Assembly: GCA_949130485.1 (NCBI GenBank)
Contig: OX422199.1
Coordinates: 7,040,402-7,104,401, forward strand
Direction of reading: 5' to 3'
Length of the DNA: 64,000 nt
DNA from: Agelas oroides
Lineage: Eukaryota > Porifera > Demospongiae > Agelasida > Agelasidae
Part shown: positions 103-63,738 of the stretch, piece by piece
How positions within the stretch are numbered: the stretch's first letter is position 1
How the letters are laid out: the number at the start of each line of letters is the position of its first letter
Notes under the pieces: generated by a model
Seen by the model: the letters and a program-made list of their open reading frames with translations, nothing else
Database searches by the model: none
Told to the model about the DNA's origin: nothing
Translations under genes and position numbers: made by a program

Positions 103-915
103 TCATGAAGATTCCTCCTGAAGGATTCTTGTTTCCATGTACCCCTCCTCTTCGTCAGAAGTTAATTGCATTCTTTGGATAGTTTGTGCATTATAGTGTG
201 GAAGGGCTAGCCTTGTCATGATTTCCGAGTCTGTCCAATTTCTATCTTTTTTCTTGGGTGTGACAGTTCCACTGTTAACTTCGCTGCCACTGTTGTTCTT
301 TATGTACCCCTCACTGTCTTGATAGAACCCCGAGTCATCAGTAGGGAAGGTTGGTGATAACAGAACAGAACTTGGGAAGGTGGAGAGGATAGGATCGAGA
401 CAAGTATGATCTGTTTCTCCTAAAGTGCAGCTGGTAAGAAGAGGTGGTAGTTGTGCTGGTTGCTTCATCTGTGAACTGGACAGCTGCTGCTCAGGATCCA
501 AACTTGGATGTATGGCTTCTTGCTGAGTTGGGTTCGAGGCAGGAATTGTGGCACTTTGCTGAATACCAGAAGTGTGTCTTATCTGTGGCGACTTTCTTGT
601 TGAATGCTCTAAGTTTCTCTCCCAACCACCCAGTACATCTGTTATAGAAGACATCTGAAATTCTTCTTCATTTCTTGAACATGGTATTTCTCTGCCCAAG
701 AGATCTTTCCCTTTAGAATGAGTATTGCTTCCATGTTTTGAGCGCGCTATAGCTTCCGAGAATTCTTCTAGCTGATCAGGTTCAGCTGATGATGTCTCAA
801 ATGTCGTACTTGTTGTTGACCTTGAGTCACCCAATACATTAATGATACTAACCACAGAGCCAGGTTTAGTGGGTAAAGTATGGATACTGATAGGGTTAAA
901 GTCCGGGTCAATTTC
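103..915 (-). CDS. Gene A exon 16: cytoplasmic tail, stop codon
   Basis: 813-nt terminal exon: 270 residues and a stop. It opens [15 protein letters not shown], aligned with [12 protein letters not shown] in gene C. A short motif of the type S-I-x-x-V-L-G occurs twice (SIINVLG and SSITDVLGG). Tyrosines sit in acidic or Gly contexts ([22 protein letters not shown]) near the C terminus, candidates for phosphorylation-dependent binding. No PPxY motif is present, unlike B and C. A polyadenylation signal was not found before the window edge. Confidence 0.85.
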   Translation of the reverse strand, partial: EIDPDFNPISIHTLPTKPGSVVSIINVLGDSRSTTSTTFETSSAEPDQLEEFSEAIARSKHGSNTHSKGKDLLGREIPCSRNEEEFQMSSITDVLGGWERNLEHSTRKSPQIRHTSGIQQSATIPASNPTQQEAIHPSLDPEQQLSSSQMKQPAQLPPLLTSCTLGETDHTCLDPILSTFPSSVLLSPTFPTDDSGFYQDSEGYIKNNSGSEVNSGTVTPKKKDRNWTDSEIMTRLALPHYNAQTIQRMQLTSDEEEGYMETRILQEESS

Positions 916-3900
916 CTAGAAGAAACAGATCAAGGAGAACTGATAATCTCACAATATAGTGGAAAGGAAGAGCTAGTGTATGCTTAGGTATATCCTCTCA
1001 ACCCAACTGTCTTCCTTCTGACATTGCATGGATTATTGGGTAAAAGTAAGCACAATTGTTGGATGTCACTTGGTGTCTGCATTACAGAGGTTCCAATGCA
1101 TACAATTACTACATGAACTCACATCCTTTAATATGACTGCCAGTGGAAACGGTTTGTCTTCTACTTCACAGCTACATAACAATAATTACACTGCACATAA
1201 CAATAATTGCACATAACAACAAGTGGAGGAATTACTACACTAGCTAGACAGCTGCCGGAAGTATAAATAATCTAGTCTTGTGCCCAGACCCAGGGGTGTA
1301 GACACAAGTTGAAAAGTGGGGGGCTTAATTCCAGGCGTGCAAAGTGCACCGAAAATTTTGATATATTCATAGCTCAAATTGTAGCAATTTCAGCATGTCA
1401 CTGTTGTCTTGGCGACTGCAAACCAACCCGTGGGTGAAAGTCCAAAATCTGGGGGTATTTTCGACCATGTTGAAGTGGCCTATTTGGCTGAGATCGATCC
1501 CCATCATTCATCTAGCCCTCAACAACCACCTAAATGCCATTTGGAAGCCATAATGCACGCAATGTTTCTTTTGACTAGTGAGATGCATTTAGCCAATGCT
1601 AAATGCATCTTACCGAACCCCCCCTCCCCCTCCACCTGAACCAGTCATGATCTTGGCCATAGAGTACCGTATTTCTTCGAATAGGCGCCACCTTCAAATA
1701 GTTGCTGCCCTCGAATAGTAGCCGCACAACAAAGAGCTCTGAGTGAATAAATGCTCCCCTCGAATAGCAGCTGCGGCTAATATACACAGCACACGCACAC
1801 GTATGTGAACACTTTCTGACGAAGGTCACTGGGTGCTAGGTCTGTTCGTGTTGTACAACTCCTTTCCACGGCAGACAGCAGGAGTGAGGGCTGCGCTTAC
1901 TACTGACAGCATACCTTATCCAGCCATTGTTGATGTTGGCGGGCTTTTCAAAGAAATAAACGCCGCCCTCGAATAGTAGCCGCACAGAAACATGCAGCAA
2001 AAAAAAGTTGCAGCAGCGTCTGATTGAAGAAATACAGTATTTCTAATTCTCACATTGACCTCTTTTCAGGCTAGCCATCATGTGATAGTCACATGTGACA
2101 GTCATGTGACAGTCATGGACAGTCATGTGATGGTCATGTGACAGTCATGTGATGGTCATATGATGGTCATGTGATGGTCATGTGACAGTCATGTGACTGT
2201 CATGTGATGGTCATGTGACAGGTCACGTGATTCTGATTCTCACATTGACCTCTTTTGGTCCTTGGACAGCTCATTAACGCATAGCACATGTAGCTGTGTT
2301 GGACCTCCCATAGGTAGTTCATAAACTCCTGACATCAGCAATGTGATGCTTGAGTTTGTCTCTAGGTGTCATGAGGCAAACATACCTTCGTGCTTTCCTA
2401 CAGAGCACAGCAGCAGCCACAGATATAGCAAATACCAGAGCCACTATTACCATCACAACTATGACAGCAACCTTGAGCGTTTGAGTATCTAAATGAGGTA
2501 GAAAGGACACAAACTTAACATATGTGGCAATCCCAGATGGAGGTCGAATGCTATTCTGTTGCGTAATTCTAGCCCATCACTAAGTTTGATGCACTATAAT
2601 AGTGCCGGGCTTCTGTTAAGGGCGGGGCTCATACTCACTTAATAGACACATCAAATATTTACAAAGATCATAATTTATGATCCCCACCCTTACGGAATAA
2701 TATTCAATTTCTATCCGCGACTGCCACATGTATAGAATCTAGCACTTACACAACTAGTGATATTCATCATAAACTTAGTTGACTAATTGATTTTCAGCAC
2801 ATTTTCATTTCTACCATAGTCTCACAAAAGAGCGCCCAAGGGTGGAACAAATCACAAATGTGTCAAAGAAGGGGGTGTGCAATCTTCCAAGTGTTTCTGC
2901 ATTCACAAAAGAGTGCCCATATATGTTTACAGTGACTCAATGCTTTTGAATCTGCCAGCCTGGTGGTGTTAACAGCGATTTACAGCGAAGTCTCCAGCCC
3001 TTGAAGTCAAGTCCTAACGGTACACCAGCACTCTGAACGGCAACATGCAACAGTGAGCATGGTATAGCTAGCACGTCAGCCCAGCTGTATTAGCTACGTC
3101 CATCTACACAAAGCCATCTTCAATAAAGTATAACACAGAGCTTTTTACTTTAGATATGGCTAACACTTGAAGCTGTACTTCTCAAACTCCATTGGAGTGA
3201 GTTTCATTAGCATGCGAAGTTCACTTACTGCAAGGTGCATGGGTACTCATTAGAGCAAACTTTGACCCCATACAGGAAATTGGGCCAAAAGTACGGTGGA
3301 CGCTCTTTCATGAGACTACCCTACTTGTACAAATGTTAATGTAATCAAGCCCCGCCTCCCACTGTACTGTGACATGATAGTTTACTAACCTGTACATGTG
3401 AACCCATCTCCAGTGAATCCAGTGTTGCAAATACAGACATAACTTCCAATTGTGTTTGTACAGTTTGCATTTGGATCACAATCATCCACCCCTCTTTCAC
3501 ACTCTGGAATGTCTGTGACATGATATGAAATATAGTAACTACAGCGGAACCTTATCATTTAGAACCTTTGAAATGTAGACACTTTGTTCAACAGATATGT
3601 TTTGCTCAGGTACGGATTACTTTCCCATTGACAGCTACATATTATACTCCCTAAAATGCAGGCAGCCTGCTATTCCGTACAGCAGTTGTTTGGTCCCACA
3701 CATTACCTGGACTGTGCAACGTTCACCCAATCATACAGCAGTTGTTTGGTCCCACACATTACCTGGACTGTGCAACGTTCACCCAATCATACAGCAGTTG
3801 TTTGGTCCCACACATTACCCGGACTGTGCAACATTCACCCAATCATACAGACACTTGTTTGGTCCCACACATTACCTGGACTGTGCAACGTTCACCCAAT

Positions 3901-6900
3901 CATACAGCAGTTGTTTGGTCCCATGCACACATTACCCAGACTGTGCAACGTTCACCCAATCATACAGACACTTGTTTGGTCCCACACATTACCCGGACTG
4001 TGCAACATTCACCCAATCATACAGCAGTTGTTTGGTCCCACACATTACCCGGACTGTGCAACGTTCACCCAATCATACAGCAGTTGTTTGGTCCCACACA
4101 TTACCCGGACTGTGCAACATTCACCCAATCATACAGCAGTTGTTTGGTCCCACACATTACCCGGACTGTGCAACATTCACCCAATCATACAGACACTTGT
4201 TTGGTCCCACACATTACCCGGACTGTGCAACATTCACCCAATCATACAGCAGTTGTTTGGTCCCACACATTACCCGGACTGTGCAACATTCACCCAATCA
4301 TACAGCAGTTGTTTGGTCCCACACATTACCTGGACTGTGCAACGTTCACCCAATCATACAGACACTTGCATACCTCTCACAGGATTCACCCAACCGTACA
4401 GACACTTGCATACCTCTCACAGGATTCACCCAATCATACAGACACTTGCATACCTCTCACAAGATTGTCCACCAAGATTCAATGACTGAACATTACCGTA
4501 TATCGGGTTTTAATTGCATAGTAAAATAATTGCGTTTCTTCAAATCTAGACGTGAATGCGTTTAAATAATTGCGTTTGACCAGGTATACGAAAAATCTGT
4601 GACGACGACCACCAGGCTAGCGCTCGGACTGTTTGTGTTCTACAACTTGCTTCCATGGCTGACAGCAGGACTAAGAGGCTGTGCGTACTACTGACTGCAT
4701 CTAACAGTCGTCACTGTATTGCTCGTACGTGGCTTATCCAGCCGTTGTTGATGTCTCAAGGAAATAAACGCCGCCCTCGAATAGTAGCCATACAAAAAAC
4801 AGCAGCTAAAAAAGTGGTAGCCGCGGCATTAGCCGAGTGAAAAAGCAGTAGAGAGTCATAATCACACTTGGTAGAATGCTAGAAACTTAGCTACAGGCTT
4901 TCTTCTAGGACGGCAGCTGTAACTGTTGACGTGTGAAGTTGTGCACATGGCGAATTAATGATTACATAATTTAAATGAATGCGTGTTTAATTTTTGCGTT
5001 TGCTAGTATTTCTCGCAATTTGCAATTAATAGAAACACGCAATTAAAACCTGATATACGGTATGCAACACTTTACTCATAGTAATAATCTCTGGTCAGCC
5101 TGGCCAGCAAAGGGAAAGCTCTGAAACGCAGCTTTGTTGTGCTGAACAGCTCAATAGCACAAGTACACATTGCCACGCCTACCCAAAATACGAATGCCCC
5201 ATATTCTGAATGCATAGCTTGCAAATATCATAGGTTACTAGGGTATTTGCATTAGAGGGGCTCCTCTCTAAACACATATGTAATACTGTACAAAAACTTT
5301 GTACCTGTGCAGTTGAGCCCATCACCTTCAAAGCCTTCCCTACATGTACAGTTGAAGCTGCCATCGCTGTCAGTACAGGTGGCACTGGAATGGCATCTAT
5401 GAATCTCCAGTCCACATTCATCAATGTCTATGAATTGAATGAAAAAGCGTGCACTTATAGCATCTAAGTTTGCCTTTTTCAGGGTGATGCACGATTGTTC
5501 GTGCATCTAGTAGAGACTGTAAGGCCATTCTGAATTAATTATTTGTTTGAACTAACATGACCACAGGAATGTTGGATCGGTCGGTCAGGTGGGTAATATT
5601 TTATTTAGGCCCACCAGATGCATTAATAACTACAACACATGGCAGCCAGTTTGGCTCTGAAATGGTAGCCTACATAGCCTATGCACATCGCACAGGCTAC
5701 TGCATGTACTACGGCTTTTGTGGTAGCGATAGTGACTTGTCTGGGTCGGGAACTACTGAGAACAGTTGTGAGGACTGAACCTGAGTGGACATTTGGCAAT
5801 TTGTATGCGTATACTTCTCGGAGTCAACACAATTTTATCCTACTTGTGCTAAAATGTTTGGTGCATATAACAATTGTTACCCAACTATGAGGCACTTTTA
5901 AAACTTCAGGTCGGTTGGGTTAGTTCAAACAAACAATTAATTCAGAGTGGCCTAATTACTACAGTTCTCAGAAATACTACTTACTTGTACAGTTGACCCC
6001 ATCTCCAGTGTAGCCAGGGTTGCAGGAGCAGGTGAAACTTCCCTCTGTGTTAGTACACTGTGCATTCTCATGACAGTTGTTCAAGTCATCAACCTCACAT
6101 TCATTGATGTCTACATGACAAAAGAAATGGATTTTGTAGTCATAGCAACAACTGCATCATGGTCTTGATCCATGAACTCTCTCACTATGCTGCAGGTCAA
6201 TTAATCCATCAGTTAACTTTACCTGTACAGTTGAATCCATCACCTTCAAAGCCTTCTCCACATGTACAGTTGAAGCTGCCGTCTGTGTCAGTGCAGTTGG
6301 CATTGGAACGGCATGTATGTATCTCCAGTTCACACTCGTTGACATCTGGAGATTGAATGATTAAAGGGATAATAAATAAAGTGCATGTTAAGGTCCCCAC
6401 CTCAGAAATACAGCATCTTACTTGTACAGTTGACTCCATCTCCAGTGTAACCAAGATTGCAGGAGCAGGTGTAACTCCCCTCTGTGTTAGTGCACTGTGC
6501 ATTCTCATGACAGTCATTGGAGTCATCACTCTCACACTCGTTGATATCTGCATAAAACACAGTAAGTCATTAACAATTGTGCAAAAGATAACATCATGCT
6601 GACCAGTGATATCTGCATTGAATTACAAAAAAGATAATGTGTAAGACTGGCACATTGTGCTAGAGATTAGCCTCATTCTCAGTTTTGAACTGCTCAGTAT
6701 AGAAAATGGAGAAAGAATGCTTTGAAATCTCAGCACATGGCACAGCTGATGTTGCATAAAGGGAGCAAGAGCGCATAAGAACGGGCGGCTAGAGTAAGAG
6801 CGTGTAACTCCAATAGAAGCCCGTAGTCCGGGCAAAATTATTGAACCGTACTAAAAATAGAACATCCGGTCACGTGTACGCTTAGTAACAATGCATAAGG

Positions 6901-9900: not shown

Positions 9901-12900
9901 TGTGTTGAATCGGGTGAAATACCACTGCTCTGTAAGTAAACAGCTAAATCAAGCTTATCTGTGAGGCCAGTTTGTTTTCGATCGATACCACCATATACTG
10001 TCATGTGTAAAGCTGTACTCAAACACTGTGGCACAAGTTTTAGTATACGGATGTGCACGGTTTTGATGATGTAGGTGAACAGCCTGTATTGGAAAGTCTT
10101 TGCTAAAAGTCCCAAGGAACTGGCAATTGGGCATTTGGCATGGTTACATGCACCCAATGGCAAGGTTCATCTTTGTGAATCTCATCAGAAGTGATGACAT
10201 CACTTCCTGTCAATTGCCTAGTTACACAATCATTTACAGTTAATTATGCTCAGACTGTACAGGTTTTCACAAGTTGAAACCAGGTGTGGAAAGACAGAGA
10301 CAGAGTCAGCAATTGCAAGTGAGAGAGAAACAAAAGTAAGCTGTTGTAAACTAGTTATGACTTACTTGTGCATGCAAACCCATCCCCGGAGTATCCATGG
10401 TTACAGTAACACTCATAGCTTCCCTCAGTGTCAGTACACTCTGCATTGGTGTCACAGCCAGCTTCTCGATCACACTCATTCACATCTGGTGAAATGATAC
10501 AATTTTAAAAATCTGTTCGCCTGTTATCTGTTGCAGTCACAACAATGATTCAACAGGGACCACCAAATTCCAAGAAAAGTACTTACTTGCACAATAGGTT
10601 CCATTTCCTTCATACCCCAGTTTACAAAGACACAAGACCCCTCCCACACTATCAGCACAGATTGCTGCAGTGTGGCAGTCATGGATTCCCCTCAAACACT
10701 CATCAATATCTGAAATAGAGTGCATACTTATAATTATCATACGTCTAACTCACGCTAATGTATGGGAGTCAATGGGGAAGCCTTGCAGCTGCACGCAGTT
10801 TATAAAAAGCCGTATTTTTTACTACAAGTCACGCGACAATCCGTATCAGTACTACAAGTCACGCGAGAATCCGTATCAGGTACTACAAGTCACGTGCGCT
10901 GCGTCTGAACGTGCAATGAAATCGAAGGTTCGTATGATAAAATCATTATCACCATAGTACTAAGCTATACCGGAAAAAAACATCACTCGTTTGTTGCCGT
11001 TGGCATTGTTACTCGTGCTGCGCACTCGTAACAATACAGACGGCAACAAACTCGTGATATTTTCCGGTATAGCTTCGTACTATGGTGATAATTATATACT
11101 AATGGCCCATACACACTACAATGTGTGCAATTGTATACAGTGGAACCTCCCTTAACGGACATTCTCTATAGCGGACACCCCATTATACAGGACAAAATGT
11201 TGTGGTCCGCATTGAATTTGCATTACGCGTAATACTTTACAGCTCTCCGAAATGCGGACACCTCGCTATGCCGTAAAGCGGACAGATTTTGCGGTCCCGC
11301 TAGTACCTAGACTGTACAAAATTCACACGATAATGCGGACGCTGGCAGGCCTCTCGCACAAGATTGTCCGGCACCGCTGATTGATTCACCAACTGGACAT
11401 AGTTCTAGCCATCGTACAGCAAGGGAGAGCTCTGGAATGCACCTTCGTAGCGCTCAATGGCACGAGTACGCATTGCCACGCCTACCGGAAATATACCGGA
11501 AGCCTCCGAAGTAGGGACACCTCTTTACTCAGGACACTTTAGATGGCACCAATGGTGTCCGCATTATAGAGGTTCCACTGTACTCAGCAATGTACTTGGC
11601 ACTGGTATCCGATTTACCCACAGCCTACACATATAGTGGCTTCATAGCCTTCCATGCAGGCCGCTGCCTCTAAAGGTGACTACCAGAGGGTAGTCAAAAT
11701 GCTCGGCAAATTACAATTGTTTAGAATTGTTTCGAAGGGCTAATGTTGTTACTAATAAGCACTATATAAAATCACGCCACTGCCTAAGTTCTTGCCCTTT
11801 GAAGTACAAAATGGGGAGAGCTTAGCCTCGTTCCCAGGCCCCGCCCAGCTTTCCGTCGCTTTCAGTACTGCAAGCGACGGAAGGCTGGGCGGAACCTGGG
11901 AACGAGGCTAGGGAGAGCTCACAGACAATACAATGGTAGACGTGACACAATCGACAAAAGGGCAAAATTTTCATAACAAAGAGGCAACGGTTTACATGTT
12001 GTTCAATCATCTACACATTCAACTCTTGTTATGTATGGCGGTTGCTCCCTGCTAGCTAGACACGTGGTATGTTGCCTGGGATTGTTGCTCTATGCTTAGT
12101 TCAGAACCCAGTATACTCAGGCACAATTAAACCTTTCTACCACTCTTTTTATCATGATGGCATGCATGTGAGACAAAGTACCAGGCCTTCTATTGGGAAT
12201 GACGCTTGATGTCACCTACATAGATTCATAGCCCTGGTCACTTGGTTCATTGTGCAGGTGAAGCCATGCCTTGCTAATTCTAACCAGGGCTATTAGCTGG
12301 TGACAAATTGTCTAGTCTCTGCCCAGACCCACTGCCCAGTCAGCAGTCTTGATTCTGAACAAACCTAGCCTTGTGCCCAGCCTGTGCACGCCTCTCAGCG
12401 AAAAACTGTCTGGTGAACGAAGTTGAATTTCTTGGGCTTATTCCCAAAAAGTGGTAAGGACCAATGAGATTGCGAGATCACGTAGCACTTCCCTTACAAC
12501 AGTAAAATTTTTCATCTCTACTTGGGTATCTGTACCATTTTTTTGAGCAATTTTGGTGCAAAATGTTTTGAAAGCTGCTAGATTACACTGTTGCAAAATT
12601 GTGCTCTAGCCTAAGAAATTCGACTTGGTTCACCAGACCGTTTTTCCTTGTAAGAGGGTGGGCTCTGGGGACGAGACTAGAATTCAGTGGTGCTACATTA
12701 CACAAGCTTGCTCACTAGTCAGTGAAATTGCTCTACCTCACAAGTAGCCTCGTTCCCAGGCCTTCCCCGTTTTTCGCCGCTCTTCCGCTTCCGTGTATTA
12801 TACTGAATGCAAACCGAAGAACAAAAACGGGGGAGGCCTGGGAACGAGGCTACCTCACAAGGATGTAATCATTGGTTTGTTCAAAGACTGAGACTGCTAG

Positions 12901-40900: not shown

Positions 40901-43900
40901 CCCATATCCCATCATGTTTTAAACTTCTCACACTTTATATATGTGTGGAAATTTTCACATCATGAACATCGATGTGCCAGCGGTGTTGGTGCTCCCCCAC
41001 TCGACACACAACTTGTCATTGTTTCATTATCAGTGCAAAGCATCTTTCAGACCAGAGAAATTGACTGACAGACAGAGGTTAGTATAACGGAAGTTTCCAG
41101 AAAAGCCTGGGGAGTCACACACGCACAAACAGTGGGTACCAGGTGCTCGCTCTGATTTTTCAAGTGCCTGGGCTAAGGTAGCCCTTCCTACATTTTTTGA
41201 CCCGTGCAGGAACTTGAGCAAAAAGAGGGGGGTGGGTGCTTGCTTTGTGGTGGGAACTTGATAATACTCTATGTTAGCTAGGCAACACAAAAACTAACTC
41301 AGGTACAGTTGTGATGCCAGGGTAATAAGTTATGTATCCATTCCAAGAAACTATTAACATTTACTACTAACAACCTGTATGAAGCTGTTTTAAGTTTCTT
41401 TTACCGCCACCCATATCTGAAGATTGTCACTCACCTGCTGACCATCATTCCCAATACAGATGTAATCAATACGAATGAAAAGGCTGCTATGATGCCTATC
41501 CTCTGTCAATATATCAGTATATGATCTGGGTACAACTTCCACTACTGCACTATCATTTGAACAGGCAGGAATGACTGATGTCACAAGAGTTCCAACTGAA
41601 GAAAGTAGAGAAGAGAGAAAACTTACAAAACTTAACACCTGCTGAAGGGGGTTGAGGTTTGGACTCTAATGTCAATCCTCTGTTAATGGGAGAGCAATGC
41701 AGGCTGTAGTCAAACTATGGCACTGTATGCAGATACATGCAGCCTTCACAAAGTTTATAATTGCCATGGAAACACATAGTGCACAGTATTATACCACACC
41801 AAAATTCACAAATCGTTTTGAGTTGGTGCATGTGATATACTTAGCTTCCCATCTCAGTAGTACTCTGCCTCTCACACAAGGCTTCATTTGAGAAAAATTG
41901 TCAAGAGAGAGTGAAAGTTGATGGTCAAAAGTTTGGAGGGGGGAACAATAGTCTTGTTCCCAGGCCTCACACAGTGTTCATTGCTTGCAGTGTAAAATTT
42001 TGTAATGCTGCGTGAGGCGTGCGGCATGGCAACCTTTTGTGTTGTTGTGCATTGTATCCAAACTATACAGGGGGGTCTAGGGGCTTGCCCCCAAATCCTC
42101 TGAAATCACTTCTTCAAGTAAGAAAGCTGTATCAAAACTGGTTACCATATTTACCATTACTCTCCCCAAAGTGAACCCTGTCTCACATAACTGTTGATGG
42201 TATCCTATCACATAATGTGCTTAGTCTCCAGAATAACTGATGTCCTGACCTGTATAGTTAACTAGGCCTTGGCAACGCATTCCACTTTATGATTAACAAA
42301 ATACATGTTTTGAATTCTTTTTTTGGTTATAGTACAAGGTGGAAACAATTAATTGGCTAAGGCATAGCCAAAGCCAATAAACGCTAAACCGCTTACACAG
42401 AGTATGATAAACTACTTCTACCACAGCAATTGCATTAGTAATTGCACTAGTATGTTCACCTTGCATTGATTGGGAGTGCAAAAGTGTCCAATATTTGGAA
42501 GTGTCCACTATATAGCAGATCTCTACTATTGAGGGTGTTCACTAAGTGAGGTTCCACTGTACACATGAACCTGTCTACATGCATACCTATTACCTACTAT
42601 ATGTAGCTGTACATTTAACTATTATGTTCCTTGTTGCCTGGCTCGGAGTGGAATATGGCAAGTTAAATGAGGTGGTTATCACTAGTGCTGCTGCTTTTTT
42701 CTCTTGGCTTCCAGTCACCGACGAATGACCACACTATTAGCCTTGGGTGATAATTGAATATCGTGGGGTAAGCCTGAGTGAGCAGCGCACTACTGGTTTT
42801 ATATTTTCTCATGGCACGCAGACCATACATGTAGAACAGACCATACATGTAGCACAGACCATACATGTAGCACAGACCGTACATGCAGAACAGACCATAC
42901 ATGTAGCACAGACCATACATGCAGAACAGACCGTACATGTAGCACAGACCATACATGTAGAACAGACCATACATGTAGCACAGACCATACATGCAGAACA
43001 GACCGTACATGTAGCACAGACCATACATGTAGAACAGACCATACATGTAGCACAGACCATACATGTAGAACAGACCATACATGTAGCACAGACCATACAT
43101 GCAGAACAGACCGTACATGTAGCACAGACCATACATGTAGAACAGACCATACATGTAGCACAGACCGTACATGCAGAACAGACCATACATGTAGCACAGA
43201 CCGTACATGTAGAACAGACCATACATGTAGTACAGACCACACATGTAGAACAGACCACACATGTAGCACAGACCGTACATGTAGAACAGACCACACATGT
43301 AGAACAGACCATACATGTAGAACAGACCATACATGTAGCATTATTTATCAGTCAGCGAAGCCACATGTACACAGGCATACACTAAACTTAACATTCAAAT
43401 CGTGAGGTGAACCTCTGCCATGTGTGAGCACTGTTCATGCATGACCTTTACTTAAGTTACACCATGCATACTTTCTGCCATCTGTGACTGAGCAACTTGC
43501 CTTCAGCATGGTCTGTCACAGTATAGTTCAAATAGTTTACAGAAAGTTGCCATGTGCACTACAATTTAAGTTGTCCTAGCTCTCTTCACACTGACGCTTC
43601 AGTCTGTCAGTAGCCCTTCACCCTAGCTCTCTGAAGCCAAACATTGTGAAAAATATGCAAAACAGTCCTGCTAGTGTGGGGCTCACTCAGGCTCACCCCA
43701 ATTGGGTAGTCATGCTTAGGAATGCACATTTGGCAGCAGTGATTGGTCATAAGTTATAACATGCCTTAGTATGTCAACAGTCCCCTGGAATGAATCCAGA
43801 ATCCACATGTATGTATATACACATATACATACACACATGCCAAGAACCTACACTGTAATATAAGATTAGCTAATACACTTGGAGATGAACCCACCTAGTG

Positions 43901-50566: not shown

Positions 50567-53500
50567 ACACACACTGCCACTTGCATGTGTGAGATTTATT
50601 CTTTCTGTTGGGGATACCCTCCCCCCTCTGTCTACCTAGGTAGACATTGACATATTACTTATGTGATAAAACTTTTCATACTGTGAAGTGATCCAAAACC
50701 AATTGGTGGTGAAGGCCCTAGCTGAATGCATCTTGGGGTGAGGTGTAAACGTGATCAATCAGTAAATATTTATTGTAGGTACAGTGGTAATAAATACAAT
50801 TAAATTGCTATTGATAAATGAATTTTCAAACTTACGTCCTTATAAAACAGCTTCTGTACTTCTAACCTGCAATTGAGGTGAAACAGTTTGACTGTTAATT
50901 CCTTGAAATGCATGTCCAATGGTATGAAGTGAAAAAGAGGAAAATCGCTCCGAAAAAGTGGTCTGGTCATTGAGCTACAACCACTGGGCCAATACCACCT
51001 CTCACATTCTTCTATACATATGCACGGTAGGTACTCTATGCTTCAGCCACAGTATGTGAATTGACAGCTAAAGCCAGCAGGGTTTGATTCCCAACTATAT
51101 ATTGACTTTCCTCTATTTCATCTCATACCATCAAATATTTACCTGTACAGCTGAGGCAAAATATTCTAAATGCAGCATGTACTTTTCTGATTCTACAAGA
51201 CAATGCTATATATAATACACAATTTCATACTGAACAGTAATATTATTTTGTAAGGTGGAACAGGACTGGAGGAAGGAACATTGTATAGCTGGTGAACCTT
51301 GTATATGCATAAACACACAGCATCTAGTGGGCTCTGCCCTGTGCGAGGTTTGTAAAAGCTGGTGGTTGTCCAGTTGTCATGGAATGGCAGAGCACTGGCA
51401 GCTCATGCCAGGTCCTAAATTAAGCCGACCTCTATTTTCACACTATAACACCTCATTTTTTTATTTCTAATGTGAGGCAAGATCTAAGCACTCTGTGAGC
51501 TGCACATGCAAGCAGTCTGGGTTTGTTCACACATAATGTAAGTCGCTATAAGCTATTAGTACAGTGCTCTTTCCTTGCAGGTGAGAAGTATGCATATTTT
51601 CTGTTCAACATTTCTAACCATGTCCATGAACTAACTGCTCAAAAAACAACTTAATCTTGGTCCAGTCACATATGGAGCAAACAGGGGAAATGTAGAATTG
51701 CACATTCAACTACAGCACAAGGTGAAAAATGTTTAAAAAATGTAACATACATACATTGTACGATCTTGCCTCCTGGTAATATTATACACGACACAGATGA
51801 CCACACACAGAATAGTAATCAGAACCGCAGCAAGTGCAAGTGCAACCAGAGACATCAACCTATAATCTGGTATAACCGAGAGAGACAGTTATGAAAACAT
51901 ATCATCGGCTGTCATGCATATAACACTACACCACTCTAATGCCTCTTGGCTTAGTATCAACAAAGGTGCTGCTGATTTTCCATAGTACATGGCCAGCGAT
52001 GCTGCTGTCCTTCTGGAAAGCCATGGCAGTTCTTGTGAATGTGTTATAGACCTTGTTCATAGCATCATGTTGAATAAATGCCCACTGTTTTCTTTTTGTT
52101 CAAAGTGTGACCACCAAGCCTTTGGAGTCTTAGGTGGTCAATGTGACAAATTGTAGCATCAAGCTATCCCACGACCCCAAATTTTGATGCACCTTGATTA
52201 TAGTATACTGTAAGCGGACATGTATACTCATGTAACTAGAACTTTGAAATGCCATACTAAAAGGTAGTTTGTTAAAGTTATAGTTAACTAAAGCAATACT
52301 AGTTAGTATGGAGTGAAATTTTGATGTGTTGTTGCTCTTTAGACATCAAGCGGACATGTATACTCATGTAACAAGGCTGGCTGAGACTACATTTGAGATG
52401 GCCACATCAAGAAATCTGCTCAGCTATAATTAGCACACAATTTAGTCAAACATAATATCCTTCTGGACCAATAATGGCCTGCTGGTCTTGTACTGTGGCT
52501 TATTATAGAGAAGGTTCCTGAATGGCTGCAACCATGTATCTATGTACCACAGCATGCAGATTAGCGTCATTCCCAGGGCCTGATTTTTTTAGTGGACCTG
52601 GGAACGAGGCTAAATGCAGCTCTATCATTTTAAAATTCTCACCACTACAGTTCAATCCATTGTTTTCCAGCTGGTATCCTGTGTCACAGCTGCAGTAGAA
52701 GCTCCCAATAGTGTTATTACAACTTTGTTCACAGCCTCCATTTCCAGTGTGGCATTCATTGATGTCTAAGAGCAACAACACATCAAAATTTCACTCCATA
52801 CTAACTAGTGTTGCTTTAGTTAACTATAACTTTAACAAACTACCTTTTAGTATGGCTTTTCAAAGCTGTCAACAGTGGCATAGCCAAGGATGGGCCCGGT
52901 CTGTCCAATTTATCAGTAGACCAACCAAAGTTCAAGTGAATTGTGCATGGCTTGTGTCACACTAGCTACATTATACAGCAACACAGCAGACCTTTTAAGG
53001 TGCACTGAAGTCAGAAGAGCAGTGTTCTACTGCTGAAAGTTTTGTAGCTTTGCCCTTAAGTTATAAGTCCCTCTCCCATGCACACCCATGCCCAAATATC
53101 AGAAATTATGTGTCATTGGCGTTCCCATAACCACCCAATACTTAGCACCTAGCTACACTCATAATGAAAGTATAACAAAATAGGTGATAGATAGACAGAT
53201 ATCTTGAATAAGCCTTACCAATGCAGATGAAGCTACCTATGGTGTACTGCGTAGTAACATGTAGACAACAGGGGCTCCATTATGACACTGTGAAAAGTAG
53301 GGTCCAGTTACATACCTTTGCAACTGAATCCATCTCCTTCAAAGCCTTCCCTACACGTACAGTTGAAGCTGCCATCTGTGTCAGTACAGTTTGCATCGGA
53401 ATGGCATGTATGTGTCCTCAGTTCACACTCGTTAATATCTGTCAGCATTGAAGGAAATTACTTAAATATGTTTCCAGTTTACACTAGCTATATACTTGTA

Positions 53501-56500
53501 TAGGTATTATTGTGTACACAAATGGTACAGTAGTGATCACACTCTTTCTACAGCAAAGCGTCCTTCTTATGTACTCATGCAGTTGTACTGTAACTTACTT
53601 GTACAGGTGACTCCATCTCCAGTGTAGCCAGGATTGCAGGAGCAGTTGAAGCTTCCCTCTGTATTATTGCAGTTTGCATCCACATGACAGTTGCTCGAGT
53701 TCTCACACTCATTGATATCTGCATAGAACACAAATTGCATCTCAATGTCTTTGTATGCCTACAGCTATGTATCACAATGCTGTTAAAAAAATGACTAGGA
53801 AACCATTAATGCATAAAAGTGTCAGCAGTCTTGTACTCCAACAGGTGCAGCACTAAGTGGTCTGGGGACAAGACCACTTGTGGTGAGAGAATGTCTCATG
53901 TAACACTAAGGCAACAACTTGGAGTGAAGGAGAGCTAATTAGATGTACTTACCAACAATTTGGCTGGAGGTCAGATAATGCTGCTTATGTATAGATAACT
54001 TGAAGGCTCCGTATGTATATGCATTCCCAGAAAATATCTCAGAACACAGCAGAGCAGCTAATTTCTTATTGCTGCTTGGACATAACAACTGTTCATTGGT
54101 AAAAGTTCATGTACTCAGTGCACATGTAGGATGTTATACACACTTAATAGCTCAACACCTATACATGTATGTACAGCTGAAACTCTGCAGGTTTTAGTAA
54201 ACTCTTACCACTGCAGTTTAGTCCATTTTCATCCAGCTGGTACCCTGTATCACAGCTGCAGATGAAGCTCCCAATGGTGTTAGTACAACTATGTTCACAG
54301 CCTCCATTTGCAGTGTTGCATTCATCAACATCTATGGAGAGCAATAAGGCATCAAAACCTCTGTCAGCTGCAACTATGCACCAAAGCATACAGATTTTCA
54401 TCTTAATAAACTCTTACCACTGCAGTTTGATCCATTTTCATCCAGCTGGTACCCTGTTTCACAGCTGCAGATGAAGCTCCCAATGGTGTTAGTACAACTG
54501 TGTTCACAGCCTCCATTTGTAATGTTGCATTCATCTATGTCTGTGGAACAACAAGGTATTTAAATTTTCTTTAAAGGTTCAAACTCTCTGTATAGGTACA
54601 ACTATGCACCAAGGAGTGCAGACCTGAACAAACTCTTACCACTGCAGTTTAATCTACTGTAATCCAGCTGGTACCTGTGTCACAGCTGCAGATGAAGCTT
54701 CCAAATGTGCAATGTATATCATGCACGCACACATCCACACACGAAACCATGAACCCTCAAGCTAGTTGTTGCTATTGCCAGCATAGCAGCAAGTGTAGCT
54801 AAACCATGCAAATGGCACCACTCCTGTCTGTGTAGAACATTCTAACTAACCCGGCCCTCTTGTTGCTTGAATGGGTACTACTATTGATGTATCAGACTCC
54901 CTATGTACTACCATTTGAGGGTATAATGTCCATTCCTTTGGAAAGCCCATTGATATAAACGACTTTTGACTAAGGTATGTATAGGCGCCTAGTACTACGA
55001 AGCCATTAAGTCACAGGATAGACAGTTAGACACTCTACTTCTCACTAGCTAGCCACAATGTGACACTGGCAGTACCATACATGTAGCCTCTTCAGTCTGC
55101 TCTTAGTGCTGAAAAACAGACAAACAGCCTTAGTGCTAGCTTTGTGGCCATCATCGGCAATATGTGTGCACATGTTTTTGTGTCTTGTATACCAGTGTAT
55201 AGCTGAGGCTAGTTTTAGAGAGCAGCGTTCATATCACTCAGCACTTCTGATTGTACAGCTACTATTTGAGGGTAGAGACTATTCTAAAGTTGGAACCTGA
55301 TCAAGGAAATACAGCGTACTAAACATAATATCCTTCTGGCCTGCTGGTCTTGTACTGTGGCTCTACAATTGATGATCACAGAGAAAGTTCCTGAATGGCT
55401 ACAACCATGTATGTACCACAGCATGCAGCTCTAAAATTCTTACCACTGCAGTTTAGTCCATTTTCATCCAGCTGGTACCCGGTGTCACAGCTACAGGTGA
55501 AGCTACCAATGGTGTTAGTACAATTGTGTTCACAGCCTCCATTTCCAGTGTTGCATTCATTGATATCTATAGAGCAACAAAACATCAAAATTTCACTCCA
55601 TACTATAACTAGTGTTAACTATAACTTGAACTAAATACCTTTTAGTATGGCTTTTTAGAGCTTTAGTTAAACTTGTATCCCAACAGGTGCAGCACTAAGT
55701 GGCTACTTGTGGTGAGAGAATGTCTCATGTAACACTCAGTGAATTAAGGCAACAACTTGCAGTGAAGGATAGTTGATGTACTTACCAACAATTTGGCTGG
55801 GGGTCAAATAATCCTGCTTATGTATACATAACTTGAAGGCTGTAATATTATGCATGCCCAGAAAAATATCTCAGAACACAGCAGAGCACCTAAATTTGTC
55901 AAATGCTTTGGGGGGCATGGACCTAAACCATGTGGGCAGGTGTGTATTCATTCTGTTTTCTACCTGCTATGCACATTTAGAGTTTGGGTGCAATTTAGAA
56001 AATTCTAGAAGCATGACTCCTCCCCTAGAAATTATACTGATGCTCTGAGATTGTTTCTGAGGACATGCTGATGCCATATTGCCACTAAAGTTCGATAAAG
56101 GTAAATGAGAATGTCTTGTATGTCAAAGTGCAAAAGAAGCCACATCTACCAGCCAGCCTTTGAGTCAAACAATGCTAGCTTAATACACCATTTTGTTTTC
56201 TTCTGCGGCTGCCAAACTAGCGTGCAAGGAGAGTGCACTAACGCTGCTTTGCCACTGTGCCTAGCATCATTGGAGTAGTATGTGGGGTTTAGTCTCAACA
56301 AAAGATTGGTTCAGCAATCACTGGCCTGCTGGCCTTTGTACTACGCCTATAACATATCAAGACCCACCCCCCTATTTATGCTAAAGTTCCTGCATAGGGT
56401 TGAGAAAAAATGTATTAACACAATGGTACAATGGTAACTCAGCAAAATACTGTACAAACATAACAACTGAATTTCACCAGTATTTATCTCAAGACCAATT

Positions 56501-56614: not shown

Positions 56615-56645
<31 letters not shown>

Positions 56646-59600
56646 CATGTGCACAAGTACAATGATTTACCAGTGACACATGAAATAGGAGATGTCCTGC
56701 CGAAATAATCAGCATCAGATCGTCTCTGCTTATAGCAGAGATAGAAGGTGCAGTTTGTCCCTGGTTGAAGTGACTGTTGCACAGTTGCAATGAATTGCGG
56801 GTTATTTTCATCTTTTACATCAAAGAATGTATCCAGGTTGGTAACATCGATTCTTCTATCTCTGTAGTCTGTTGTCCATGGTGTTCCTCTAATCTGCAGT
56901 AACAACATGAGGATACGAACAGTCAGCTGACAAAACACGAATCACTAGTTTTAAGATCTAGATCAACGAGTAAATGATACAATAGAAGCCCATAGTCCGG
57001 TCGAAATTATTGAACTGTACTAAAAATAGAACACCGGTCACATGCTTAGCAACAATCGCCTATGTCTACGTGTAGCTGCACAGTACGTGTTACTATTTTT
57101 AGTACTGGCGGTAAATTCCGACTGGTTTTGAATTTTACGCTCTTACTCTAGCCGCCAGTTCTTATGCACTCCTTTGTTGATAAACTAATCAGTGTGTGTA
57201 CACTTGGAAGGAGTGCATGGTCACACAACATCTGCAATACCATAAGTATAGTCTACATATGAAATAGGACTACAGCTAGGTTGTCCCCATTCATGTAGAC
57301 TATATATGTATGTGATATTCCATGTATAGAAGGATTTATACTCCCAGTATAGTATTTTTTACCACATTGAGACAGTAAACTAAAACTCAGTTTTGTGCAA
57401 ACTATGCTGTTCATCATGCAAGCTTTTGTATATACAGTTTCTACATAAAATGAATATATGACCCATTTTATACGCTTCATATATAATAATAAAATATGTA
57501 AAAGTGATTTAATGTACATAGCTACTGTTCCTATAAAACCTGCACATTGGTGTTGCCTACGTATATACGTATATCCCTCCCAGCAAAGAATGAATTTTTG
57601 ACCATACAAGTGTCTACCCCATATTGCCACTCACCTGCTGACTATCATTTCCAACACAGATGTAGTCAATACGAACGAAAAGGCTGGCATGACTTCTATC
57701 CCCTGACCAAATATCATCATATGATCTGGCTACAACTTCAACTGCTGCACTATCATTAGAACAAGTGGGGATGACTGATGTCACAAGAGTTCCAACTGAA
57801 GAAGGTAGAGAAGAAGAAAAAAACAGCTGCTGATGAGGCTTGGAGAGTTGAACTCCATAATTAATCCTCTGTTAATGGGAGAATAATGCACTTCCCAGCC
57901 AATTGCAGAAACCTTGGCACTGGCATCTTCTATACTAACTTTCACATACTCTTGCATATTCTATTATGTCACCATGGAAACACCAGGTAGTGTAAGCAGC
58001 ATCACACAAAAACCACACCAAATTATAAATTGGAAAATTTTTGATGGGTTAATAATCGTTTTTGCCAAAACTAAATTTTCTTAGTTTTTAAAAAAAAATT
58101 GTGTATTTTCAAACATACAATGTATATTAATTTTGTTGTACAGCATGTATCAATACAGAATTTCCTTGCATTTTATCATTCTACAGTGTGGTTAAAGGTC
58201 CTCTCTCTTTGTTCATTGCTAAACCTATAATCTCTAAAAACATAAGGCCACTACAAATTGGATAATAATTTCCCGTCCTGGCTAAGGATGCAATAGCGTG
58301 GGCGGGCAGGTTTTTTTATTATTCATTACAGATGTGGTAAAGGAAATACAAACCACAAAGTACTAAAACATGGTCACTAAGTGTCTTGTATACATACAAA
58401 CCTCCAACAGCTGTACATGCTACACACAGCAAGGACCGAAAAAGCGAAAGAAAGTAGACAACCTCCACTGCAATGGCACTGTATGGTACAGTACTGCTCG
58501 AGCGCATGGACTAGACCGTAAATAATTTTGAATAGATAACGTCATAATTCGTTATAATAGAAGATAACCACAATTAGGCGGGCTCATGAAGGGCATGCGG
58601 GCGGTGGACGGGAAACTATTATCCAATTTGTAGTGGCCTAAGATTAGTACTTTTAACAAATCAACTATTTTCTAGTTTATGCTAATTGCAAACTATAAAC
58701 TCAATCAATGGTATAAATATATACTAATATTGTTACTATTAGACACATAGTTGTATGTGTGCAAATGTTTACAGCAACTTGACATGGTTCTCCTATATTT
58801 ACACTTATTAACAGTATCAGCTTACAGCAGTATTTATGTACCACACTTGCATTTACTAGTAAGATTCCCTAGTAATACATATTTATAGTGAATGTTTTAG
58901 TTGAACCACATTGTTGCCTAGGATACAAGGGAGAGTCCGTGGTCATAATGATGATGATGGTTTCATGTGGGAAGTATGATGTAGCAAGCTATGTAGTGTA
59001 AACACTGGGCAATGGTCATACTGGTATAATGTTGGTAGTCCATTGATGAACTTTTTAGCTTATAATCACTCTCTTCTTCAACAAGACCTATTTGGTTATA
59101 TTCCTGGCACCGCAAACTATGCAACCAAGATAACCTTCCACTCAATATGCGAGTGTCACCGGACTCTCTCCCGCTTTTCGTGTGAGAGTCTGGCTCCGCG
59201 AGACTAGTCTGGAGTTAGTCTCGCGGGCCAGACTCTCACGTGTGTGAGAGTCTGGCCTGCGAGACTAGTCTGGAGTGGCTTATAGGCCAAATGGTTAAGG
59301 AAACGTTTATGGTAAACTGTTACAGTCTGTAAGTTTACAATACCGTATGGCGGTTTTTATTCGCGGGGCAAAATTTTCGCGGCAAGCTACTTGTGCAGTC
59401 TCAGTACAATAATATCATGTAAAGGTTTTCAGTCTGAACACACTCGTTGGCAGCACGGACAGCAGCTGGCTGGACCGAGGAAGAGAGTGAGCCCTCCGGA
59501 TTTGGTAGCTGTCATCGTGGGATGGCTTGAGGACCGACATAGAGCACGTGGACCTCACACCTATACATACGCATATTTTCGCGGGCTAAATCTCCATACC

Positions 59601-62600: not shown

Positions 62601-63738
62601 TGCTGCCAAAACTCAGTTAATCTGTTTTCTTTCTTCTCAGGTCACCTTCTCGAATTCTCTGACACTGTTACCCACCTTGGTCACGTTTTACACTGTTCGC
62701 TTGATGACAGTGATGACATCAAGAGAGCCACACTTGAAATGTGTAAAAAAGCCAATATTATCCTAAGTACCTTTTCTTCGTGTGATCCGCATGTCAAGAC
62801 GGTCCTCTTTAACTCACACTGCTTGTCGTTGTATGGTGGTGCTCTCTGGGACATTACTTGCAGACAGCTTACTTCCTTGGAGGTTGCCTTCAATAATATT
62901 CTCAGGCGAATTTGGAGGGTCCCAAGAAACTGCCACACTCGAATTCTGCATAAAATTGCACATCTTGATAGTGTTCTCAATCGACTTATACGTTTATCTG
63001 ACCGTTTTTCAAGAAAGACCTGCGAGTCGAATTCATATTTGCTTCATGACTCCTTTACCCTATTCAACACCAATGTGTTTACTCCAGTTGGCAGCAATCG
63101 CTACTGTGCTCACAAATATGTGAAATTGTACTTTGAGGAAGACCTTATTTGTGCTGACTTTGCAAGATACCTGCGCATCAGTGACTCCAGTGTAAGAGAT
63201 TTGGACATTGAGTCAATGATACAAATTATTTGTTGTAACTAATTATCTTCACTTAATTATTTTAGTGTCTTCCTTTACCTTTACTTCTACCCTCCTGTAC
63301 ACCTAAATTTGGTGTGTTTATCGAAAATTATTATTATTATTATTATTATTATTATTGACCCAATACCATCTAGCAATAACAGTTTCCCACACTTGTTGAT
63401 AAACCAATGTTATTTTGACAGTGGAGGTTGATATTGTGTTGATTGACAATCTGGGAGTTGATACTCCCACTAACCAATATGCACTCAGATTGGATGTCCG
63501 CTTGCCTGTGTAGTACGTTACATTATTCTGTGTTGCATCGGTCCTTTAACATGCGCATCTTGGGGTGTAAATACGTCCACAAGTATAAAGCTAAAATATA
63601 CGTATGCGCACATACTGTCTTACCCGGGCTGTCCTCAACGGTGCAGTCCCCAGAATAGAAATTGCCATAAGCAGGACCGGGAGCGAGAAACAAGACGAAG
63701 TTCCAGAGGAGAGAAAACGCTACCAGTTGCCTCGACAT
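49585..63738 (-). CDS. Gene C: multi-EGF single-pass receptor-like protein (12 exons)
   Basis: Exons 63624-63738, 57635-57795, 56671-56893, 55444-55566, 54418-54540, 54209-54331, 53599-53718, 53316-53438, 52643-52765, 51755-51866, 50836-50866, 49585-50406; 2199 nt, exactly 733 codons. The architecture is that of gene B: signal peptide, six-Cys module, six EGF domains, transmembrane helix, juxtamembrane micro-exon and a 273-residue tail with one copy of the unit that is repeated in gene B. A frameshifted seventh EGF exon remains at 54638-54707. The first intron (5.8 kb) was enlarged by two MITEs and an antisense LINE. B and C share intron blocks, so they come from a segmental duplication. The role is inferred only from architecture. 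Confidence 0.86.
50523..50574 (+). repeat. (C)n(CA)n low-complexity run
   Basis: About 30 C followed by CACACA, in the gene C intron upstream of the tail exon. A run like this is easily misassembled. Confidence 0.9.
50836..50866 (-). CDS. Gene C exon 11: juxtamembrane micro-exon
   Basis: 31-nt exon, phase 2 to 0, encoding (M)[10 protein letters not shown], with GCAG acceptor and GTAAGT donor. Confidence 0.83.
51055..51130 (+). mobile_element. SINE-like fragment
   Basis: AAAGCCAGCAGGGTTTGATT with TCCC is the B-box block, followed by TCTATTTCATCTCATACCA, the family tail. It lies in the gene C intron between exons 10 and 11. Confidence 0.5.
51755..51866 (-). CDS. Gene C exon 10: transmembrane helix
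   Basis: 112-nt exon, phase 1 to 2; [20 protein letters not shown] and on to VVY, then NITRRQDRT. The donor is AAT|GTATGT. Confidence 0.86.
52562..52612. mobile_element. MITE, TAGCCTCG family, very short remnant
   Basis: TAGCGTCATTCCCAGGGCCT is followed closely by GGACCTGGGAACGAGGCTA; almost no interior is left. It sits 30 bp from gene C exon 9. Confidence 0.6.
52643..52765 (-). CDS. Gene C exon 9: EGF domain 6 (membrane-proximal)
   Basis: 123-nt phase 1-1 exon; [18 protein letters not shown] ... [18 protein letters not shown]. Gene B has only a decayed remnant in this position (31922-31986). Confidence 0.87.
53316..53438 (-). CDS. Gene C exon 8: calcium-binding EGF domain 5
   Basis: 123-nt phase 1-1 exon; [17 protein letters not shown] ... 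[18 protein letters not shown]. It is the counterpart of gene B exon 9. Confidence 0.87.
53599..53718 (-). CDS. Gene C exon 7: calcium-binding EGF domain 4
   Basis: 120-nt phase 1-1 exon; [16 protein letters not shown] ... [18 protein letters not shown]. It is the counterpart of gene B exon 8. Confidence 0.87.
54209..54331 (-). CDS. Gene C exon 6: EGF domain 3
   Basis: 123-nt phase 1-1 exon; [18 protein letters not shown] ... [18 protein letters not shown]. The intron to exon 5 is 86 nt. Confidence 0.88.
54418..54540 (-). CDS. Gene C exon 5: EGF domain 2
   Basis: 123-nt phase 1-1 exon; [18 protein letters not shown] ... [18 protein letters not shown]. It lies just downstream of the decayed copy at 54638-54707. 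Confidence 0.88.
54638..54707 (-). pseudogene. Decayed EGF exon in gene C
   Basis: It keeps [10 protein letters not shown] and a good TG|GTAAGA donor, but one G is missing from the usual ACAGGGTACC, which shifts the frame into a stop, and the IDEC half is absent. It lies upstream of intact exon 5 and is evidently a dead unit of the NGGC-type EGF array. Confidence 0.7.
55444..55566 (-). CDS. Gene C exon 4: EGF domain 1
   Basis: 123-nt phase 1-1 exon; [18 protein letters not shown] ... [18 protein letters not shown]. Confidence 0.88.
56571..56655 (+). repeat. (CT)n/(GT)n microsatellite
   Basis: CTCTCT followed by GTGTGT, placed 15 bp past the donor of gene C exon 3, the same place as the (TG)n of gene B. 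Confidence 0.9.
56671..56893 (-). CDS. Gene C exon 3: N-terminal six-Cys module, second half
   Basis: 223-nt phase 0-1 exon: [20 protein letters not shown] ... TNCTFYLCY ... [13 protein letters not shown] microsatellite follows the donor, as in gene B. Confidence 0.88.
56980..57172. mobile_element. MITE, same family, left end missing (copy 5)
   Basis: It begins inside the element at AATAGAAGCCCATAGTCCGG and ends GCCGCCAGTTCTTATGCACT. It lies in the gene C intron between exons 2 and 3. Confidence 0.7.
57635..57795 (-). CDS. Gene C exon 2: N-terminal six-Cys module, first half
   Basis: 161-nt phase 1-0 exon: [20 protein letters not shown] ... [13 protein letters not shown]. The donor is GTGAGT. 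Confidence 0.88.
58245..58639. mobile_element. MITE, AGGCCACTACAAATTGGATA ends
   Basis: The left end AGGCCACTACAAATTGGATA and right end TATCCAATTTGTAGTGGCCT are inverse complements over 20 bp. The interior carries GGGCGGGCAGG and GCGGGCGGTGGACGGG. It lies in gene C intron 1. Confidence 0.75.
59159..59275. repeat. GC-rich imperfect palindrome
   Basis: The words GTGAGAGTCTGG, GCGAGACTAGTCTGGAG and CCAGACTCTCAC occur in both orientations, giving a strong hairpin. It is probably a short foldback element in gene C intron 1. Confidence 0.55.
59341..59602. mobile_element. MITE, TACCGTATGGCGG ends
   Basis: The left end TACCGTATGGCGGTTTTTAT has a degenerate inverse partner TCTCCATACCGTA at the right, where it meets the next element. 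The interior has CGCGGCAAG words of the same superfamily. Confidence 0.55.
59597..60130. mobile_element. MITE, TACCGTATAGCCGG ends
   Basis: The ends TACCGTATAGCCGGTTAATT and AATTAACCGGCTATACGGTA are perfect inverse complements. It abuts a MITE on the left and the LINE on the right, in gene C intron 1. Confidence 0.75.
60140..60345 (+). pseudogene. LINE ORF1, C-terminal fragment
   Basis: An open frame reads [20 protein letters not shown] and on into an Arg/Ser-rich end ([19 protein letters not shown]), stopping at TGA 60343-60345. The stop overlaps the ATG of the next ORF as ATGA. Basic, Ser-rich C termini are usual for nucleic-acid-binding ORF1 proteins. The 5' part is missing. Confidence 0.6.
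60342..61223 (+). pseudogene. LINE ORF2, AP endonuclease part
   Basis: The frame starts at ATG 60342 and shows the order expected for an APE endonuclease: [19 protein letters not shown] (catalytic Glu), [20 protein letters not shown] and FSDHVPVFF (catalytic His). The frame stops at 61223, after a shift near 61200, while the reverse transcriptase continues in another frame. In intact elements this part nicks the target DNA. Confidence 0.85.
61204..62766 (+). pseudogene. LINE ORF2, reverse transcriptase part
   Basis: RT motifs in order: [68 protein letters not shown] and [12 protein letters not shown] with the catalytic YADD at 62500-62511. After about 62640 the frame turns to unrelated sequence and stops; the true continuation lies in the frame of 62739-63242. 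The catalytic residues are intact, so only the frameshifts show it is dead. Confidence 0.9.
62640..63242 (+). pseudogene. LINE ORF2, C-terminal region
   Basis: It continues the RT protein in a third frame with [30 protein letters not shown] and [18 protein letters not shown], the region after RT typical of CR1/jockey-like elements. The stop is at 63240-63242. A single small indel near 62640 explains the split from the preceding part. Confidence 0.8.
63327..63356 (+). repeat. (ATT)n tail of the LINE
   Basis: Ten ATT units directly after the LINE 3' region, a common 3' end for CR1/L2/RTE-like elements. Confidence 0.85.
63624..63738 (-). CDS. Gene C exon 1: signal peptide
   Basis: ATG at 63738; leader [20 protein letters not shown], then [18 protein letters not shown]. 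It ends in phase 1 at G|GTAAGA. It differs at only a few positions from gene B exon 1. Confidence 0.88.

Follow-up and report, generated by a model that had tools for sequence, protein, structure and literature searches.

A stretch of 64,000 nucleotides from the sponge Agelas oroides (assembly GCA_949130485.1, 259 Mb in 141 contigs; contig OX422199.1, hereafter C17, positions 7040402-7104401), referred to here as the window, carries three tandem genes that share one order of domains. On balance, we favour the explanation that they belong to a tandem family evolving by birth and death, whose products would be single-pass surface proteins composed of a six-cysteine head, an EGF stalk, one helix and a tail without any recognised domain. 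Judged by sequence comparison, these are apparently kinase-less EGF-repeat surface receptors or adhesion proteins, restricted to their lineage at the sensitivity reached.

The genes were rebuilt from open frames, splice consensus and paralogue comparison (Table 1). Gene 1 (23802 to 103) comprises 16 exons and a coding sequence (CDS) of 2595 nt, gene 2 (47643 to 26366) 12 exons and 3306 nt, and gene 3 (63738 to 49585) 12 exons and 2199 nt. All three CDSs are multiples of three with no stop before the final one, their junctions carry AG/GT and their phases match. A preliminary description of this DNA had reported three same-strand paralogues with hand-built CDSs of exactly these lengths and with matched phases, and the order that it gave is present in each gene: signal peptide, six-cysteine module encoded by two exons, EGF exons (10, 6 and 6, every one of phase 1-1), one helix, a micro-exon of phase 2-0 and a tail encoded by a single exon. 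Exon 2 of gene 1 was located by searching lengths of 107-197 around the 152 nt missing from the earlier total; its splice sites are good, its phases are as expected and its cysteines align, and because this search was guided by length the total for gene 1 is only partly independent of the earlier number. That such an arrangement is unlikely by chance, as had been claimed, was borne out by calculation: the chance product for genes 1-3, which multiplies the proportions of AG..GT segments in the window, matched in length and phase, that are free of stops, with the tail exon excluded and uncorrected for the choice of exons, ranges from 10^-8.8 to 10^-11.9. Across 60 single-base shuffles, the open run on one strand reached at most 186 codons, and the tails of genes 2, 3 and 1 span 635, 273 and 270. 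Genes 1-3 are supported as paralogues sharing one architecture.

The preliminary description counted a family of three, which holds within the window, but the array continues beyond it. Joining the window with 100 kb of flanks (40 kb + 60 kb; 200 N inside) gave a 164-kb region in which genes 4 and 5, on the minus strand like the others, were located upstream. Gene 4 (88782 to 75069 in the frame of the window) is complete, with 15 exons, 9 EGFs and a CDS of 2682 nt, and gene 5 (98309 to 94639) is open from the signal peptide through the helix, with 7 EGFs. A fragment of a module second-half exon lies between genes 3 and 4 (67982-68059) and is perhaps the relic of a lost copy. Gene 1 and genes 2-5 form one family by exon order and phases (up to the helix for gene 5) and by aligned cysteines; the hhalign comparison of the gene 1 module with the four others (P 0.006, 26 columns, probability 6%) is weak taken alone.

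Copies are also spread over the genome. A module search at E up to 1 found 29 places: 15 second halves (14 of them with E below 0.001), 13 first halves (10 at that level) and a single fragment of 25 residues. These places lie on C17 at 2.95, 4.82, 5.85, 6.05-6.09 and 7.08-7.14 Mb and on contig C1 at 28.7, 29.8, 30.3 and 31.6 Mb; the counts are lower bounds since the query missed the divergent module of gene 1. Tail queries retrieved seven loci besides gene 1, corresponding to genes 2, 3 and 4, C1:13.58, C1:31.56, C17:2.97 and C17:3.00 Mb, and one weak match containing 11 stops. The C1:13.58 Mb locus encodes two EGFs, a helix, a micro-exon and a 251-aa tail, with no module found within the 20 kb examined. 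Several copies are decayed or lack a tail. At C17:6.064 Mb, EGF exons, one of them with stops, and a helix are followed by no sense-strand tail match up to the signal exon of the next gene, and an antisense match to one tail (E 7e-4) is taken as chance. The cluster at C17:6.05-6.09 Mb ends, at 6.097 Mb, in a 31-nt micro-exon that is open and in the beginning of a tail, which lacks an AG acceptor and meets a stop after ~40 codons. The copy at C17:4.82 Mb has EGFs, a helix and a similar tail remnant (~4.814 Mb) whose acceptor appears lost from the reading of its translation, and that at C1:30.27 Mb has 6 EGFs and a helix; neither a tail nor a kinase motif was recognised there over 9 kb. The state of these copies suggests a history of birth, death and loss of tails.

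The six-cysteine module is encoded by exons of phases 1-0 and then 0-1; five of its cysteines are invariant in all seven aligned copies and the first is present in all six rows that cover it. Searched against Pfam (seven copies, E up to 10, with HMMER filters that discard most matches above E 0.1), it found no credible match, the best row being ThiF at E 0.17 in one copy. Among PDB sequences there was likewise no credible match, the one villin row (2vik, E 0.91) being at chance level, and in protein databases none of 409 word-sharing candidates matched at E up to 10, over a search range of ~491-1563 aa that distant or short relatives could escape. An FN3 identity was considered and gained no support from the comparisons made: Pfam reports no FN3, and hhalign of the module with one approximate FN3 sequence gave P 0.47.

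Outside this genome, the tail is matched by one 627-aa open reading frame (ORF) in ENA, 72.7% identical to the gene 2 tail over 608 residues. The protein search, which covered ~403-1281 aa and required exact shared words, returned two proteins, this ORF and one sourceless record identical to the ORF of the window itself; phage records gave no match, and Pfam recognises no domain in the tails of genes 1-3. Chance-level rows aside, these comparisons support the view that neither module nor tail belongs to a described family in the libraries searched, in keeping with the undescribed-looking architecture reported initially. In the literature, covered through titles and the beginnings of abstracts with subscription journals mostly outside the search, no described family of this kind was met.

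Between head and helix, Pfam recognises 10, 6 and 6 EGF_CA stretches in genes 1, 2 and 3. The EGFs are of the calcium-binding type with one exon each, and they number 10, 6, 6, 9 and 7 in genes 1-5, so that EGF count varies among copies as first described. Tail length varies too (270-867 aa, with two pieces that are shorter, at 251 and 72 aa). In gene 2, EGF1-4 derive from a tandem duplication of a 191-bp exon-plus-intron unit with 97% matches. The helix exon has phase 1-2; the micro-exon is 49 nt long in gene 1 against 31 nt in each of genes 2-4. In the copy at C17:2.97 Mb it seems to have merged with the tail exon, and in the C1:31.56 Mb copy (C1b) it was not found. A whole-protein homology search returned 2826 matches swamped by EGF repeats and uninformative for module or tail; the 120 matches listed are 33-56% identical to the query, of which they cover 17-51%, and many are named fibrillin-like.

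EGF-type families are the only ones above cut-off in genes 1-3, a result that separates them from several known systems. They resemble receptor tyrosine kinases in their single pass and in a tail with possible tyrosine sites, but no kinase domain is found in them by Pfam; a receptor tyrosine kinase identity was therefore rejected, and the initial label 'EGF receptor-like' is not supported in the EGFR sense. A genome search with PF07714, in which 129 of 1425 candidates were scored, yielded 148 matches, and among those scored the match closest to any module place lies ~59 kb away (C17:5.792 versus 5.852 Mb). The 164-kb region contains no scored PF07714 match and no catalytic-loop motif. On present evidence, the family would be kinase-less and unlinked to receptor tyrosine kinase genes. 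Elsewhere, at C8:4.86-5.93 Mb and C15:1.23-1.49 Mb, tyrosine-kinase-like matches form large tandem arrays, their open frames being 154-970 aa long.

Membership in the fibrillin or Notch families, which the preliminary description had proposed to check by domain search, was also rejected. Tandem EGF_CA repeats are shared with fibrillin/LTBP and other calcium-binding EGF matrix proteins; genes 1-3 differ from fibrillin/LTBP by the absence of the TB domain (PF00683) and by a membrane helix, a long tail and an unrecognised head. With Notch they share an EGF stalk and a single pass but have no LNR, NOD, DSL or ankyrin detectable by Pfam.

The closest general layout that we considered is that of Draper/MEGF10/CED-1, described as an N-terminal extracellular module, EGF-like repeats, one helix and a kinase-less tail (PMC8092387). 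The sponge proteins could accordingly be engulfment or scavenger receptors of this kind, binding targets through the cysteine module and the EGFs and having their tail phosphorylated by Src-family kinases, and such receptors would serve filter feeders. We regard this as unlikely. No EMI domain was found by Pfam, either in genes 1-3 or in the seven modules under the search settings given above, the EGFs are of the calcium-binding type instead of NIM repeats, and neither an immunoreceptor tyrosine-based activation motif (ITAM) nor NPxY was found by pattern search in the eight tails. The family is consequently not placed with Draper/MEGF10/CED-1.

The tails longer than 100 aa (seven) are acidic and rich in Ser and Thr, with 14-19% D+E and 21-27% S+T. 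Tyrosines number 26/635 in gene 2, 14/320 in gene 4, 7/273 in gene 3 and 4/270 in gene 1, and 20/867 in C1b, 11/474 in C17a, 3/251 in C1a and 1/72 in C17b, the last four being the copies on C1 and C17 outside the array. In six of the eight tails LxYxP[VI] begins at residue 4 or 5, and a pattern of the immunoreceptor tyrosine-based inhibitory type, [SIVL]xYxx[ILV], which in receptors of that class lies close to the membrane and recruits phosphatases, stands at the start of six. The motif GY[VILF] occurs seven times each in gene 2 and C1b, five times in C17a, four in gene 4, twice in gene 3, once in gene 1 and not at all in C1a and C17b. The 867-aa tail at C1:31.56 Mb (L023:5707-8307) is an internal repeat expansion whose units carry the motifs NYVRSEDLL and GYVDSE.

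The same tails could belong to adhesion or matrix-anchoring proteins and serve endocytosis or the cytoskeleton, tyrosine phosphorylation being incidental. A YxxPhi-type site with its tyrosine at residue 6 or 7 is present in six of eight tails, tyrosine retention is near average, and some copies have no tail or a remnant, all of which would suit such a role. We nevertheless hold it rather unlikely: seven GY[VILF] motifs in C1b and as many in gene 2 exceed what a single sorting signal needs, an objection qualified by genes 1, 3 and C1a, which have two or fewer.

The coding nature of the exons was further assessed by the ratio of nonsynonymous to synonymous change (dN/dS), computed for genes 2-5 by a Nei-Gojobori count with our own script. 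Ratios are 0.47-0.59 for the module (six pairs) and 0.49-0.71 for the tail (three pairs, genes 2-4). Among the 36 nearest EGF pairs of equal length, taken at fewer than 14 differences, 34 give 0.04-0.97, 25 of these being below 0.5, and the remaining two have zero synonymous change. This lends support to the predicted coding exons, most clearly in the EGFs. Furthermore, EGF2 and EGF3 of gene 2 compared with EGF2 of gene 3 have a dS of 0 when the modules of the two genes differ by a dS of 0.28, a sign of recent exchange of EGF exons.

Tandem copies, a variable number of EGFs, tail-less members and this sign of exon exchange would also be expected of polymorphic self/non-self recognition receptors, an explanation to which we assign a slim probability. 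All module and tail pairs (6/6 and 3/3) have dN/dS below 1, which leaves diversifying recognition, and with it the fast-evolving recognition locus initially suggested, unproven, and the main text of an Amphimedon grafting transcriptome paper, by word search, contains neither of the words EGF and receptor (PMC5450542). In Botryllus, the fuhc locus is reported to comprise a linked set of genes whose recognition proteins are displayed on the surface or secreted, among which fuhc-tm has Ig domains and demonstrated polymorphism (PMC3691228); its likeness to an EGF-stalk array known here from one assembly would be a functional analogy only. A broader version, namely a lineage-specific kinase-less recognition system in which an orphan head and a variable EGF stalk are coupled to tail tyrosine sites served by the kinases of the genome, with tail-less members as decoys or tail sharers, for the recognition of self/non-self or of microbes, seems to us decidedly doubtful.

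Several observations weigh against the birth-and-death family of single-pass proteins with signalling tails that we favour. The tail had been called tyrosine-rich, which is true of genes 2 and 4 (4.1-4.4%) and not of gene 1 (1.5%). The gene 1 tail, with its four tyrosines, and the C1b tail both lack LxYxP[VI]; the absence of ITAM and NPxY counts here as well. Tyrosine retention, set beside overall identity, was 19/25 (73%), 10/15 (56%), 7/11 (61%), 7/7 (56%), 3/6 (53%), 8/16 (42%), 11/24 (41%), 4/11 (40%), 4/14 (40%) and 1/6 (26%) in ten tail pairs; it exceeds identity from gene 3 to gene 4 (7/7, 56%), falls below it from gene 4 to C17a (4/14, 40%) and shows no consistent excess. Retention thus tracks identity, and phosphotyrosine docking by the tails is a plausible proposal. 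Finally, no micro-exon or tail of gene 5 was found in the 5.8-kb gap before gene 4, and with two further loci retaining only a tail remnant, tail signalling would not be the role of every copy.

Protocadherin variable exons use common tail exons. By analogy, the gene 5 cassette, open to the helix and ending in a phase-2 GT donor that fits the micro-exon of gene 4, might splice onto the micro-exon and tail of that gene, and the gap between the two genes, in which neither a micro-exon nor a tail of gene 5 was found, would agree with it. The probability of such a shared-tail cluster appears very small: the C17:6.05-6.09 Mb cluster ends in a remnant with no acceptor and an early stop, and a stop immediately follows the helix exon of gene 5, so that it is simpler to regard gene 5 as a copy that is dying or that just encodes a protein with no tail.

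Under the favoured explanation, the proteins would be expressed and displayed at the cell surface, where the six-cysteine head would most likely bind a partner. The stalk of 6-10 EGFs would act as a spacer stiffened by bound calcium, its length altered through exon duplication. A short juxtamembrane piece encoded by the micro-exon would link the helix to the long acidic Ser/Thr-rich tail, and the latter may recruit cytoplasmic proteins, probably via the membrane-proximal LxYxP[VI] and the repeated GY[VILF] once phosphorylated by separate kinases, or alternatively via trafficking adaptors.

Table 1. Exons of genes 1-3 in window coordinates
Feature	Position	Strand	Remark
Gene 1 exon 1, signal peptide and first Cys of module	23730..23802	-	
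Gene 1 exon 2, six-Cys module first half, phase 1-0	19655..19806	-	length-guided search
Gene 1 exon 3, six-Cys module second half, phase 0-1	18195..18372	-	CTFxxCY common to other copies
Gene 1 EGF1	16048..16170	-	Pfam
Gene 1 EGF2	14520..14642	-	Pfam
Gene 1 EGF3	13002..13118	-	Pfam
Gene 1 EGF4	10587..10709	-	Pfam
Gene 1 EGF5	10366..10485	-	Pfam
Gene 1 EGF6	6422..6547	-	Pfam
Gene 1 EGF7	6223..6345	-	Pfam
Gene 1 EGF8	5985..6110	-	Pfam
Gene 1 EGF9	5305..5427	-	Pfam
Gene 1 EGF10	3390..3512	-	Pfam
Gene 1 transmembrane exon, phase 1-2	2386..2488	-	hydropathy
Gene 1 juxtamembrane exon, 49 nt, phase 2-0	1123..1171	-	
Gene 1 cytoplasmic tail, one exon, 270 aa	103..915	-	genome search with this tail matched itself only
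Gene 2 exon 1, signal peptide	47529..47643	-	
Gene 2 module first half, phase 1-0	41435..41595	-	
Gene 2 module second half, phase 0-1	38013..38244	-	
Gene 2 EGF1, start of 191-bp tandem exon duplication	36212..36334	-	
Gene 2 EGF2	36021..36143	-	
Gene 2 EGF3	35830..35952	-	
Gene 2 EGF4	35639..35761	-	
Gene 2 EGF5	33085..33204	-	
Gene 2 EGF6	32837..32959	-	
Gene 2 transmembrane exon, phase 1-2	30556..30679	-	
Gene 2 micro-exon, 31 nt, phase 2-0	30306..30336	-	
Gene 2 cytoplasmic tail, one exon, 635 aa	26366..28273	-	
Gene 3 exon 1, signal peptide	63624..63738	-	
Gene 3 module first half, phase 1-0	57635..57795	-	
Gene 3 module second half, phase 0-1	56671..56893	-	
Gene 3 EGF1	55444..55566	-	Pfam
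Gene 3 EGF2	54418..54540	-	Pfam
Gene 3 EGF3	54209..54331	-	Pfam
Gene 3 EGF4	53599..53718	-	Pfam
Gene 3 EGF5	53316..53438	-	Pfam
Gene 3 EGF6	52643..52765	-	Pfam
Gene 3 transmembrane exon, phase 1-2	51755..51866	-	
Gene 3 micro-exon, 31 nt, phase 2-0	50836..50866	-	
Gene 3 cytoplasmic tail, one exon, 273 aa	49585..50406	-	

The window has a G+C content of 40-45% in 4-kb steps, contains no tRNA that could be found and is rich in short tandem arrays. A 56-bp array of 12 copies (3678-4361) occupies the gene 1 intron between EGF9 and EGF10, and an 18-bp array of ~29 copies with several open frames (42819-43338) lies in the first intron of gene 2. Another intron of gene 2 (31050-31709) yields the same peptide stretch from both strands, in the manner of a mobile element of the foldback or inverted-repeat kind. 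An element that resembles a long interspersed nuclear element lies on the opposite strand (60330-63242, +) within the first intron of gene 3; it is spread over several frames, and its ORFs encode an endonuclease and a reverse transcriptase (Pfam Exo_endo_phos, RVT_1).

Animal lineages with few known receptors still need means to sense cells and microbes, and a multi-copy family of orphan receptors with an unrecognised head, from a genome also equipped with large arrays of kinases, would provide concrete candidates for both. Should the array prove to be a recognition locus, it would offer an entry to the molecular basis of allorecognition in this lineage; otherwise, it would represent one more lineage-specific family of EGF-repeat receptors.

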